Shown piece by piece: positions 6,414-10,368 of a stretch of DNA of 64,000 bases. The stretch spans positions 1-64,000 of the forward strand of contig NZ_NQVN01000007.1 in NCBI RefSeq assembly GCF_002770725.1, given 5' to 3'. This DNA is from Pleomorphomonas carboxyditropha (lineage in GTDB: Bacteria; Pseudomonadota; Alphaproteobacteria; Rhizobiales; Pleomorphomonadaceae). How positions within the stretch are numbered: position 1 is the stretch's first letter; each line of letters begins with the position of its first letter. The translations under genes were made by a program, and so were the position numbers. Under the pieces are notes generated by a model. That model ran no database searches and was not told the DNA's origin. It saw nothing but the letters and a program-made list of their open reading frames with translations.

Positions 6414-7046
6414 TCAGCCGGCCTTGAGCAGCAGTTCCGCGTCGCGGCATCCCTCGGCCCGGAACGGCTGCCGGCGCGTCGGCCCGAGGCCCAGCGCGGC
6501 GAGATCGGCGTCGAGACGGACGAGATCGGCATCGGCGAGCAGCCATGGATGCACGGTGGTGCGAACCTCGAAGGCGACGCCGCTGCCGGCCAGCGCGACA
6601 AGGCTTTCGCGTGCCCTGACGCCGCTTCCGGGAACGCCGGTGATGCGTTCATAGTCGGCAAACGGCGCCTTGACGTCGAAGCCGACCCAGTCGAGCTGCG
6701 ACAAAAGACGCGCAAGACGATCGGGATAGGGACCGGCGGTGTGCAGGCCGACGCGGAAGCCGCGCGCCCTGACGGCGGCGATCGCGTCCGGCAGGGCCTT
6801 TTGCAGGGTCGGCTCGCCACCCGAGAACAATACGCCGTCCAGAAGTCCTCGCCGCCTGTCCAGCACGCTGAGAATCGTCGCGAACTCCGGCCCGCCGCCT
6901 CGGCCGGGCGGGATCAGGTCGGCGTTGTGGCAATAGCGGCAGGCGAGCGGGCAACCCTGGCAGAATACCGTTGCCGTGAGTTCGCCCGGCCAGTCGCAGG
7001 AGGACAGCGGCGTGAAGCCGCCGACCGCGATGTCAGCGCCGTTCAT
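6414..7046 (-). CDS. nrdG: Anaerobic ribonucleoside-triphosphate reductase activating protein
   Basis: 210 residues. A radical SAM protein with the cluster motif CPLACRYC near residue 33 (Cx3Cx2C) and the following glycine-rich SGGEPTLQ motif. It uses S-adenosylmethionine to form the glycyl radical of class III ribonucleotide reductase in the cytoplasm. It is the last gene of the nrdD operon, and its start overlaps the end of the small glycyl-radical-domain gene by 14 bases, which implies coupled translation. It would act on that small protein rather than on the large NrdD chain. Confidence 0.93.
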   Translation of the reverse strand: MNGADIAVGGFTPLSSCDWPGELTATVFCQGCPLACRYCHNADLIPPGRGGGPEFATILSVLDRRRGLLDGVLFSGGEPTLQKALPDAIAAVRARGFRVGLHTAGPYPDRLARLLSQLDWVGFDVKAPFADYERITGVPGSGVRARESLVALAGSGVAFEVRTTVHPWLLADADLVRLDADLAALGLGPTRRQPFRAEGCRDAELLLKAG

Positions 7047-7233
7047 CGAGGTCGCGCCGCGCCGCCTCCAGGAAATAGGTGCGTTCGGCGAATTCGCTCT
7101 TCTTGCCCTTGTTGAAGGACGAGACGGGGCGGTGATAGCCCATCACCCGCGTCCAGATCTCGCAGCGCTGGCGCTCGTCATCGGCGAGCTGGAGGGCGGC
7201 GTCGGCTTCGAGGGTGGTCAGAGGCTTGTTCAT
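7033..7233 (-). CDS. Separate glycyl-radical domain of class III ribonucleotide reductase
   Basis: 66 residues from an ATG with a strong AGGAG seven bases upstream, 23 bases after the nrdD stop and in another frame. Residues 29-45 read RVMGYHRPVSSFNKGKK, which matches the C-terminal glycyl-radical loop of NrdD (RVCGY...FNAGK in E. coli), with Gly32 as the radical site. The preceding large gene stops after the zinc site and lacks this loop. So the radical-bearing tail appears to be a separate polypeptide that must dock into NrdD. Its own ribosome binding site and its overlap with nrdG argue against a sequencing frameshift. I recall similar short genes beside nrdD in other proteobacteria, but cannot check this here. 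Confidence 0.88.
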   Translation of the reverse strand: MNKPLTTLEADAALQLADDERQRCEIWTRVMGYHRPVSSFNKGKKSEFAERTYFLEAARRDLDERR

Positions 7234-7256
7234 GGCGGATCTCCTTGGATGAAAGG

Positions 7257-9275
7257 TCATTCGGCGGCGGCGCGTTTTTCGGCCAGCCGTTCGGCGTCGC
7301 AGATCGGGCAGAATTCGTGCTCGCCGGCGATGTAGCCGTGCTTGGGACAGATCGAGAAGGTCGGCGTCACGGTGATGTAGGGCAGCCGGAAATTCTCGAG
7401 CGCCCGCCGGACCAGCTTCTTGCAGGCCTCGGCCGACGACACCCGCTCGCCGAGATAAAGGTGCAGCACCGTGCCGCCGGTATAGCGGGTCTGAAGCGGC
7501 TCCTGGCGACGAAGCGCCTCGAAGGTGTCGTCGGTGAAGCCGACCGGGAGCTGGCTGGAATTGGTGTAGTAGGGCGCCTCCGGCGTGCCGGCCTGCAGGA
7601 TGCCGGGAAAGCGCTTCCCGTCCTCCCGGGCGAAGCGATAGGTCGTTCCCTCCGCCGGCGTCGCTTCGAGATTGTAGAGATGCCCCGTCTCCTCCTGGAA
7701 GGCGACGATCCTCGCCCGCACGTGGTCGAGCAGACGGACGGCGAACGCCTCGCCCCACGCCGTCGTGATGTCCTCGGCGTCGCCGCTGAAGTTGCGGACC
7801 ATCTCGTTGACGCCGTTGAGGCCAAGCGTCGAGAAGTGGTTGCGGAGCGTGCCGAGGTAGCGTTTCGTATAGGGGAACAGGCCCTGATCCATCAGCGACT
7901 GGATAACCTTGCGCTTGATCTCCAGGCTGGTGCGGCCGATCGCCAGGAGATCGTCGAGCCGCCTGAACAGTCCGGCCTCGTCGCCTTTGTGAAGGTAGCC
8001 GAGCCGCGCGCAGTTCACCGTGACGACGCCCACCGACCCCGTCTGCTCGGCCGAGCCGAACAGGCCGTTGCCGCGCTTCAAGAGTTCCCTGAGATCGAGT
8101 TGCAGCCGGCAGCACATGGAGCGCACCATGTTCGGCGTCAGCTCGGAATTGAGGAAATTCTGGAAATAGGGCAGCCCGTATTTGGCCGTCATCTCGAACA
8201 GCCGGCTGGCGTTGTCGCTGTCCCAGGGAAAATCGCCGGTGATGTTGTAGGTCGGGATCGGGAAGGTGAAGACGCGGCCCTTGGCATCGCCCGCCGTCAT
8301 CACTTCCATGTAGGCTCGGTTGATGACGTCCATCTCGGCCTGCAGGTCGCCATAGCGGAAGTCCATCTCGATGCCGCCGATGACCGGCACCTGGTCCTTG
8401 AGGTCGTCCGGACACACCCAGTCGAAGGTGAGGTTGGTGAACGGCGTCTGGGTACCCCAGCGCGAGGGGACGTTGAGGTTATAGATCAGCTCCTGGATCG
8501 ACTGCCGCACCTCCTCGTAGGTCAGCCGGTCCTTGCGGACGAAGGGCGCCATATAGGTGTCGAAGGACGAAAAGGCCTGGGCGCCGGCCCATTCGTTCTG
8601 CAAGGTGCCGAGGAAATTGACGATCTGGCCGACGGCGCTCGAAAGATGCTTCGGCGGCCCGGCTTCCACCTTGCCCGGCACGCCGTTGAGGCCTTCGGTG
8701 AGCAAGGTCCGGAGCGACCAGCCGGCGCAATAGCCCGAGAGCATGTCGAGGTCGTGAATGTGGATGTCACCGTCGCGGTGCGCACGGCCGACCTCCGGCG
8801 GATAGACGTGGCTGAGCCAGTAATTGGCGGTTACCTTGCCGGAGACGTTGAGGATCAGGCCGCCCAGCGAATAGCCCTGGTTGGCGTTGGCGTTGACCCG
8901 CCAGTCGGCGCGTTCGAGATATTCGTCGACCGACGCGACGACGTCGACGACGGTATTGGCGTCGCGGCGCAGCCGGGCCCGCTGCTCGCGATAGACGATA
9001 TAGGCGCGCGCCGTGGCGAAATGGTTCGCGGAGATCAGTGCCTGCTCGACGACGTCCTGGATCTCCTCGATCGACGGCGTGCGGCCGGCAAAGCGATGGG
9101 CGAGCACCTTGACCGCCTGCATGGCGAGAAGCTGCGCCTCGCCGCCGGAAAATTCGCCGGTGGCGGCGCCGGCCCGTTCCACGGCCGATCGGATCTTGTC
9201 CGCATCGAACGGGACGAGCGCGCCCGAACGCTTGAGGACGCTGAGAGGGGGACTGGCTGGACTGACTTCCGACAT
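7257..9275 (-). CDS. nrdD: Anaerobic (class III) ribonucleoside-triphosphate reductase, large chain without radical tail
   Basis: 672 residues. An ATP-cone lies at about residues 12-100 (VLKRSGALVPFDADKIRSAV region). The ten-stranded barrel that reduces ribonucleotides follows, with cysteines in SGYCAGWSL and SMCCRLQL in the expected regions. The protein ends with a zinc-site segment containing CPKHGY and CPIC, then 13 residues. The family normally continues for about 50 more residues carrying the glycyl radical; here these are in the next gene. It makes deoxyribonucleotides without oxygen. The gene is preceded by a cobalamin riboswitch and followed by the radical domain gene and nrdG. Confidence 0.95.
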   Translation of the reverse strand: MSEVSPASPPLSVLKRSGALVPFDADKIRSAVERAGAATGEFSGGEAQLLAMQAVKVLAHRFAGRTPSIEEIQDVVEQALISANHFATARAYIVYREQRARLRRDANTVVDVVASVDEYLERADWRVNANANQGYSLGGLILNVSGKVTANYWLSHVYPPEVGRAHRDGDIHIHDLDMLSGYCAGWSLRTLLTEGLNGVPGKVEAGPPKHLSSAVGQIVNFLGTLQNEWAGAQAFSSFDTYMAPFVRKDRLTYEEVRQSIQELIYNLNVPSRWGTQTPFTNLTFDWVCPDDLKDQVPVIGGIEMDFRYGDLQAEMDVINRAYMEVMTAGDAKGRVFTFPIPTYNITGDFPWDSDNASRLFEMTAKYGLPYFQNFLNSELTPNMVRSMCCRLQLDLRELLKRGNGLFGSAEQTGSVGVVTVNCARLGYLHKGDEAGLFRRLDDLLAIGRTSLEIKRKVIQSLMDQGLFPYTKRYLGTLRNHFSTLGLNGVNEMVRNFSGDAEDITTAWGEAFAVRLLDHVRARIVAFQEETGHLYNLEATPAEGTTYRFAREDGKRFPGILQAGTPEAPYYTNSSQLPVGFTDDTFEALRRQEPLQTRYTGGTVLHLYLGERVSSAEACKKLVRRALENFRLPYITVTPTFSICPKHGYIAGEHEFCPICDAERLAEKRAAAE

Positions 9276-9399
9276 CGTTCTTCTGCACCCGGATCAGGGC
9301 GGGGAACGACGGGAACGCGGCCGGCGATGGCGGAGACGCACTCCGGCCATGCGACGACGACGATCCACCGGTGCACCCCGCCCGAGGACATTTCTCATA

Positions 9400-9575
9400 G
9401 GCCGGGGCAGGTCTCCTGGCTCGCGGGTCTCGGCGGCCGATCCGTCTTCCCAGTGCGTCGCACCAGTGACATTCGTGGATCGGTCACTTCCCGCCTACAG
9501 TTGCGGGGGCAGCGCCGGTATTGGACCGGCTTCCCTCTTCGCTCCAGATGTTGTGGCATCCGGAGAACCTCGGCT
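9400..9575 (-). ncRNA. Cobalamin riboswitch upstream of nrdD
   Basis: Read on the minus strand, the region has all the usual conserved blocks in order: GGTTCTCCGGATGCC, GAGGGAAGCCGGT, the B12-box part CTGCCCCCGCAACTGT, GTCACTGG, CACTGGGAAGACGG, and the closing GAGCCAGGAGACCTGCC. The nrdD start codon is about 125 bases downstream. Binding of adenosylcobalamin to this class normally lowers expression, so B12 would switch off the B12-independent anaerobic reductase. This implies a B12-dependent class II enzyme elsewhere in the genome (inference). Confidence 0.96.
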
Positions 9576-9583
9576 CAACACAT

Positions 9584-9612
9584 GGTATTCACCGCCAAGC
9601 GAGTCGGGTCAA
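9584..9612 (-). promoter_or_regulatory. Candidate nrdD operon promoter
   Basis: On the minus strand TTGACC (9612-9607), a 17-base spacer and AATACC (9589-9584) lie just before the riboswitch. A transcript starting about seven bases later would begin with the aptamer. The -10 match is poor. The remaining 9613-9894 stretch has no gene that I can see and should hold the dps promoter; no FNR or NrdR box could be recognised in it. Confidence 0.4.
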
Positions 9613-9894: not shown

Positions 9895-10368
9895 ATGACG
9901 ACCCGCAACACGCTGAAGTCCAATGCCAAGAAGGTTTCGACCGAGGTTCTCGGCGCGCTTCTCGCCGACGGCATCGACCTGGCGCTGCTGACCAAGCAGG
10001 CGCACTGGAACCTGAAGGGCCCGCGCTTCATCGCCATCCACGAAATGCTCGACGGATTCCGCACGGAAATCGACGGGCATGTCGACACCATGGCCGAGCG
10101 CATCGTCCAGCTGGGCGGGATTGCCAACGGCACACTGCAGGGCGTCGCGGCGGCGAGCCGCCTGCCGGCTTATCCGGCCGACATCACCGCCGAGGACGAT
10201 CACCTCAAGGCGCTGACCGAACGCTATACCAAGGCCGCCACGACGGTGCGTGACGGCATCGACCAGACGAGCGAAGCCGGCGATGCCGACACGGCCGACA
10301 TCCTGACCGGCTATTCGCGCGCCCTCGACAAGGCGCTGTGGTTCCTCGAGGCCCACCTGCCGAACTGA
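9895..10368 (+). CDS. dps: DNA starvation/stationary-phase protection protein Dps
   Basis: 157 residues, with AGGA upstream of the ATG. A ferritin-like four-helix protein with the Dps ferroxidase signature: HWNLKGPRF, followed by HEMLDGFRTEID with the acidic and histidine ligands shared between dimer partners. The lysine-containing N-terminus (TLKSNAKKVS) could contact DNA. It stores iron as a dodecamer, uses hydrogen peroxide as oxidant, and protects DNA. It is transcribed away from the nrd operon; the two share a roughly 620-bp control region. A GC-rich hairpin follows the gene. Confidence 0.94.
   Translation: MTTRNTLKSNAKKVSTEVLGALLADGIDLALLTKQAHWNLKGPRFIAIHEMLDGFRTEIDGHVDTMAERIVQLGGIANGTLQGVAAASRLPAYPADITAEDDHLKALTERYTKAATTVRDGIDQTSEAGDADTADILTGYSRALDKALWFLEAHLPN

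Follow-up and report, generated by a model that had tools for sequence, protein, structure and literature searches.

We analysed a stretch of 64,000 nucleotides from Pleomorphomonas carboxyditropha (contig NZ_NQVN01000007.1, positions 1 to 64,000; hereafter the window), which carries on its minus strand an operon for a class III (anaerobic) ribonucleotide reductase (RNR) in which the glycyl-radical loop is encoded by a small gene of its own. The elements of the operon follow one another in the order cobalamin riboswitch, nrdD (the large chain), the small gene and nrdG (the activase), and comprise the following features:

9389..9587, minus strand: cobalamin riboswitch 5' of the nrdD operon (RF00174, 127.3 bits, gathering score 31.5)
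7257..9275, minus strand: nrdD, class III RNR large chain, 672 amino acids (aa) plus stop, with ATP-cone, catalytic barrel and zinc site
8106..8117, minus strand: finger-loop motif M387-C388-C389-R390 of NrdD (double-cysteine MCCR type), invariant in 25 aligned large chains
7299..7349, minus strand: predicted NrdD zinc site C643-x2-H646 ... C656-x2-C659, residues invariant in 25 aligned large chains
7241..7246, minus strand: ribosome-binding site AAGGAG of the small gene
7033..7233, minus strand: gene of the predicted glycyl-radical subunit, 66 aa, in a frame that differs from that of nrdD, 23 bases past the nrdD stop
7138..7140, minus strand: Gly32 codon; this residue of R29-V-M-G32-Y is predicted to be the radical glycine and aligns with Gly621 of 4coi
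6414..7046, minus strand: nrdG, radical S-adenosylmethionine activase, 210 aa, with a 14-base overlap with the small gene

The initial annotation of this stretch had proposed that NrdD ends early and that a separate gene provides its radical loop, and the features on which that proposal was built were all recovered, on the minus strand, which it had not specified: the large chain continues for 13 residues after the last cysteine of the zinc site (C659) and then stops; the TGA of nrdD is followed, after 23 bases and in another frame, by the ATG at 7233, with AAGGAG at 7246-7241; the 66 codons at 7233..7033 hold RVMGYHRPVSSFNKGKK with Gly32; and nrdG (7046..6414) overlaps the small gene by 14 bases. 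The residues C643, H646, C656 and C659 would bind zinc, as judged from relatives of the protein.

When aligned to the NrdD family, as had been suggested, the two proteins together tile one family from end to end. The 562 positions of PF13597 are shared out between the large chain (2-530) and the 66-aa protein (531-562), and the 684 positions of NF006126 are split likewise (4-650 and 649-681). The large chain scored 581 bits against PF13597, with the class III family body and the catalytic barrel present, and 1129 bits against NF006126; it also contains an ATP-cone (PF03477, residues 12-100) and the MCCR finger loop, which is one of the two main class III motifs (PMC9669993, as given in the part of that paper drawn on here). 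The small protein matched PF13597 531-562 with an E-value of 2.2e-8, above the Pfam gathering score; this was its sole Pfam match at E up to 1, and a radical domain of the pyruvate formate-lyase type was not found in it. NrdG matched TIGR02495 (NrdG2, 189 bits, above the cut-off) and PF04055. Among solved structures the large chain matched the NrdD of P. copri (8p23), T. maritima and T4 and the entry 9d3x, and two further RNR chains were matched via the ATP-cone. A profile of the small protein retrieved only the NrdD of T. maritima (4coi), weakly (E 0.6), and placed Gly32 over Gly621, which is described as the radical glycine of that enzyme in the relevant part of PMC4493059. The enzyme is a variant of the standard class III type, since the radical domain is on a separate chain: the glycyl-radical motif of the class is present on the small protein, and the chain that holds the barrel covers only PF13597 2-530. 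In RefSeq the small gene is named nrdD, anaerobic ribonucleoside-triphosphate reductase, and the large gene ribonucleoside triphosphate reductase; with such near-identical names the databases hold both pieces and give no sign of the split.

The genome (5.88 Mb, 80 contigs, completeness estimate 100) contains one NrdD and one radical loop. A second full-length nrdD, named in the initial annotation as a possible alternative with the window's copy inactive, was looked for across the genome together with a second radical loop and neither was found, the two next-best hits to the small protein having E-values of only 0.1 and 0.7; a hidden full-length NrdD was therefore rejected, as the genome has no other NrdD.

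The arrangement was then followed through other bacteria, with loci kept best-scoring first, which biases the split share towards near relatives. Every locus found in the genus was split. At the level of the order the small gene was present in 17 of 397 genomes, and the 18 loci examined were all split with the small gene adjoining. A sample of the class, searched with the large chain, gave matches in 42 of 385 genomes (12 lower-scoring genomes were left unclassified), and the 29 loci beyond the window's own comprised 23 split loci with an adjoining small gene, 3 fused loci and 3 without a small gene nearby. The phylum sample gave matches in 16 of 398 genomes; from 13 of these 14 new loci were classified, of which 9 were split, 4 (in 3 genomes) fused and 1 without a small gene nearby. 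The four genomes without an adjoining small gene (three from the class sample, one from the phylum sample) carry it elsewhere, on another contig (G667, G692 and G498) or about 9 kb off (G1025), and in G667 and G1025 the unlinked small gene lies beside nrdG, not nrdD. In the seven genomes with a fused NrdD the fused loop is the only radical-loop match in each, and all 42 classified genomes with a large chain (29 from the class, 13 from the phylum) have a radical loop, be it fused, adjacent or elsewhere. A scan of named genomes, in which at least 583 of 585 stretches were confirmed and the best 80 of these at least 583 were kept, yielded 79 split loci among the 80, from Alpha-, Beta- and Gammaproteobacteria, Acidithiobacillus and single metagenome-assembled genomes labelled Omnitrophota and Actinobacteria; the closest named match of the small protein, among the matches listed, was that of Pleomorphomonas koreensis (L052, 94%). 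In the family to which a Thiocapsa genome belongs, 53 of 96 genomes had a match, at 58 places, all of which were examined: 52 were split, 1 was fused and 5 were orphan small genes, to which we return below. The split arrangement is common in Proteobacteria, and the split class III enzyme is real and widespread; neither a split class III RNR nor a phage radical protein of the NrdD type was found described in the literature that we searched, whose coverage excluded most subscription journals.

The collection of 188 distinct split loci bears directly on the question whether the split is genuine. An nrdD of the usual full length, broken by a frameshift that arose in sequencing or assembly, a possibility that the initial annotation had itself raised, would appear as adjacent pieces that together equal one NrdD, as is the case here. 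This explanation is ruled out by the occurrence of the 188 split loci in all three frame relations (74/62/52), and with all genus loci split, a Shine-Dalgarno sequence of its own before the small gene and the small gene unlinked in four genomes, we assign it a negligible probability. Programmed read-through of the stop or ribosomal frameshifting, either of which would yield one chain, fits the short gap between the genes (median 29 bases; at 27 of the 188 loci they overlap) and the 52 loci at which the small gene is in the nrdD frame with a stop between. It is nevertheless extremely improbable: no frame is strongly favoured, a start codon and a ribosome-binding site are nearly always present (a site of at least 4 bases at 181 of the 188, a count inflated by the choice of the best candidate start per locus), and unlinked small genes occur, as do phage copies without nrdD. 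The small gene has a pooled ratio of non-synonymous to synonymous substitution (dN/dS) of 0.27 over 11 loci of the window's genus group, between which the pairs are not independent. The two chains are probably made separately.

That the radical glycine resides on a separate small protein, which must work in trans, is supported by these observations. Because the large chain lacks the radical loop and the genome has no other NrdD, the small protein would not be an optional spare and is apparently an obligatory subunit in this genome. The opposite view, in which the small protein would be a dispensable spare of the GrcA kind and the large chain would have a radical glycine of its own elsewhere, for instance the zinc-loop Gly647, could draw on a 1999 paper on Cupriavidus necator H16 that reportedly put the radical at the equivalent zinc-loop glycine. 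It could also draw on precedent, as GrcA and the Y06I protein of T4 are described as acting in this way for pyruvate formate-lyase (PMC8683613, in the part consulted). We consider it quite improbable, as the large chain stops short of the part of the family that holds the radical loop and such a loop is present in all 42 classified genomes that were found via the large chain.

The locus of C. necator H16 (L132, on pHG1) is itself split, with a large chain of 676 aa, a small protein of 66 aa and an NrdG of 239 aa. The large chain has a computed mass of 76,191 Da; its Gly650 lies within the zinc loop CPTHGYL (CPTHG650YL), and the radical motif is found on the 66-aa protein instead. The reported assignment of the radical to Gly650 may need re-examination, and the paper may equally hold data to the contrary. 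NrdD genetics in split species such as H16 may have missed a third gene. In H16 NrdDG is reported to be essential for denitrification and its loss to be compensated by B12, and the CH34 genes are given, in the passage of PMC2864759 that deals with them, as Rmet_5137 and Rmet_5139 with the intervening number omitted; that number would be the small gene.

A tree of 61 large chains, taken without the loop, required at least 6 changes between the split and fused forms, at least 4 of which are forced by well-supported branches; as it came from a short search and has long branches, it shows the number of the changes and not their direction. Nine of the 61 rows are fused and fall in the same clade as the split ones. 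Since three fused alphaproteobacterial rows group together inside split rows, the radical domain was probably re-joined at least once. Magnetospirillum fulvum (L053/L184) was tried as a further fused NrdD and rejected, as one open frame there takes in a riboswitch, some 34 codons that look like the beginning of NrdD, and a small open reading frame (ORF) that is intact. At positions 3480-4200 of L053 the riboswitch, of the cobalamin type, is followed by these codons and then by the intact radical gene, and a second locus of the genome has both nrdD and the small gene.

Several points weigh against the interpretation of the small protein as the radical-bearing subunit. Fused enzymes occur in the same clade, so that function does not depend on the split; solved radical loops are matched weakly by the small protein (E 0.6); and the evidence is at the level of sequence. 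Siedow et al. (1999, J Bacteriol 181:4919) are moreover reported to have given the H16 NrdD as a protein of 76.2 kDa with its radical at Gly650 of the large chain, and direct proof of a radical at that residue, if the paper holds it, would contradict the interpretation. With these points taken into account, we still consider it very likely that the operon encodes a class III RNR of three chains: an NrdD devoid of the radical domain, the activase NrdG and, as glycyl-radical subunit, the 66-aa protein.

In such an enzyme the small protein would dock on NrdD between its zinc hook and its barrel, in the place taken by the C-terminal domain of ordinary enzymes, and would thereby set Gly32 beside the cysteines of the finger loop. 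By S-adenosylmethionine chemistry NrdG would take a hydrogen from Gly32, in the small protein alone or in its complex with NrdD, and the oxygen-sensitive glycyl radical would then generate the thiyl radical that starts nucleotide reduction. Activation by NrdG is suggested by the overlap of the two genes and by the two genomes in which the small gene is found beside nrdG and not beside nrdD. With a radical domain that is naturally detached, each of activation, docking and radical transfer would be open to separate study, and the question whether the domain is exchangeable after oxygen damage is posed directly. Exchange of the small protein after such damage, as the initial annotation had envisaged, is conceivable, and exchange in trans is made more plausible by the phage and plasmid copies that occur without nrdD.

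As to regulation, two other RNR large-subunit genes are present in the genome, with open frames of 940 and 1235 codons, which from their length would be of class I and class II. The cobalamin riboswitch points to an operon that is switched on whenever the B12-dependent class II enzyme is unable to function, the B12-independent class III enzyme being made when B12, and hence class II activity, is short. The riboswitch is not general, since only 5 of 18 scanned loci have one at this place (L061 of Afifella, L079 of Rhodospira, L105, L127 of Rhodopseudomonas and L053 of M. fulvum, where it stands before the NrdD remnant). Two promoter-box patterns were sought upstream of the window's nrdD and not found. 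Beyond the riboswitch lies a plus-strand ORF (9895-10368) that, from its sequence without a search, was judged to encode a putative Dps-type protein.

The five orphans of the Thiocapsa family have neither nrdD nor nrdG in the flanks examined. Two occur in G1141, two in G1170 (one of them close to a contig end) and one in G1186, on a contig of 176 kb, and each of these genomes also carries a normal operon (L242, L245 and L249). The orphans of G1141 and G1170 sit among genes that we read as phage genes, and both orphans of G1141 recur as IMG/VR records (L335 and L411). A sixth orphan small gene is located on plasmid pALVIN01 of A. vinosum. Stand-alone radical genes in prophages, on plasmids and on viral contigs were encountered at L243, L244, L246, L247, L248 and L160 and at viral loci among L275-L429, mostly without nrdD and with flanks devoid of nrdG.

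Two scans of viral contigs gave 184 of 196 and 213 of 220 confirmed stretches, and the best 80 of each amounted to 155 different loci, on contigs that are partly shared. The flanks reach up to 4 kb per side and are often cut by contig ends, 120 of the 155 stretches having 1 kb on both sides. Among these best 80 per scan an NrdD body, sought with loop-free queries, was present in the flanking stretch of 2 of the 103 distinct viral small ORFs, and the window's NrdG had no match at E 1e-3 in the 155 viral stretches, the whole records not having been searched for nrdG. In whole viral records of at least 20 kb the radical stretch was the sole PF13597 match in 49 of 50, the remaining one also having the body; these 50 had been hand-picked for length and omitted L421 and L422, two records with an NrdD body close to the radical gene, with which the count becomes 49 of 52. 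The neighbours of the viral radical genes include Mu portal, Mu F, Gp36, endolysin and clamp-loader genes. Asn41, Gly43, Lys44, Glu47 and Arg51, all of which lie outside the search patterns, are present in 98 of 98 distinct viral cores, which have a pooled dN/dS of 0.18 (133 pairs); Arg29, Gly32 and Tyr33 are fixed in these cores by the selection pattern and have no evidential value. The core statistics leave aside 4 of the 103 ORFs, three with a called start inside the loop and the interrupted L356. For 99 viral proteins the median identity to the closest host match is 73%, and in several viral proteins the likeness to small proteins from the class sample (L025-L036) extends past the loop.

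Some viral loci deviate from the common form. In L356 (4001-4720) the radical gene is interrupted by an insertion inside the loop, which resumes some 470 bases later; the viral record L345 has an nrdD of its own plus a separate small radical gene, the nrdD being an ORF of 808 codons with about 120 extra codons, possibly an intein, between two NrdD parts; and at L339, L308, L246, L402 and L415 an extra cysteine-rich N-terminal part precedes the loop.

In a collection of named phages the window's small protein, used as query, had no match, and three phage-type queries matched 2 of 50,697 records, one of which is that of the archaeal virus ANMV-1, where a gene of 144 codons bears the annotation anaerobic RNR. 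With so few named records the phage evidence is mostly metagenomic. The PHROGs family phrog_4132, listed as of unknown function, was matched by all 28 small proteins scanned, and the radical protein of a split NrdD offers a function for it.

Since the viral records mostly lack an NrdD body and the stretches a match to NrdG, the phage copies by themselves would make no nucleotides. Two opposing interpretations were considered. The copies could be inhibitors that block the slot or the activase and so poison the nucleotide reduction of the host, or they could be unrelated to RNR; the 49 of 50 whole records without the NrdD body, the 155 stretches without a match to the window's NrdG and the location of several copies in lysis or head gene regions agree with this. 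We consider it unlikely, as the five loop residues retained in 98 of 98 viral cores and the dN/dS of 0.18 are more like a working loop than a plug, and the loop is interrupted in one, L356, of the 103 distinct viral ORFs. The other interpretation, which we put forward tentatively and rate as somewhat short of probable, joins the bacterial and viral observations: the radical part would be a mobile piece, charged by NrdG, swapped between NrdD bodies and replaced, after it is killed by oxygen, with no need to make the enzyme anew, and phages and plasmids would carry only this piece, matched to hosts whose NrdD is split, to start or restart the nucleotide reduction of the host during infection. 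If true, viruses would here supply a single subunit to an enzyme of the host, comparable to Y06I of T4 for pyruvate formate-lyase, but for DNA precursors.

Compared with known systems, the enzyme shares with the class III NrdD of E. coli, T4, T. maritima and P. copri the family body, the zinc site, the radical-loop motif and the NrdG partner, and with some of them the ATP-cone. In the descriptions of class III enzymes that we drew on, the radical glycine lies within the catalytic chain and its domain has to flip out to meet NrdG; here that domain comes from a gene of its own and the large chain stops after the zinc site. A division of an RNR over two required chains, encoded in one operon in Proteobacteria, is known from the class II NrdJa/NrdJb of Pseudomonas aeruginosa, which a passage of PMC4520616 called in 2015 the only split RNR outside viruses; that enzyme differs in its class and in its small chain, which serves dithiol exchange and not radical storage (PMC4520616, same part). 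A parallel in form, to which the initial annotation had already likened the small protein, is GrcA (YfiD) of E. coli with its T4 counterpart Y06I, small stand-alone glycyl-radical proteins, phage-borne too, that act in trans with an activase (PMC8683613 and PMC12338860, in the parts consulted). The likeness holds for the small, stand-alone radical protein (here 66 aa from a separate gene) but not for its partner: the enzyme rescued by GrcA possesses a glycine of its own, whereas here the large chain lacks the radical loop, the genome has no other NrdD and the small protein is apparently obligatory. The families differ as well, GrcA and Y06I serving pyruvate formate-lyase and the small protein carrying the PF13597 loop. 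According to the part of PMC8683613 that treats them, only YfiD and Y06I have been validated as spare parts, and similar proteins may exist for other glycyl-radical enzymes.

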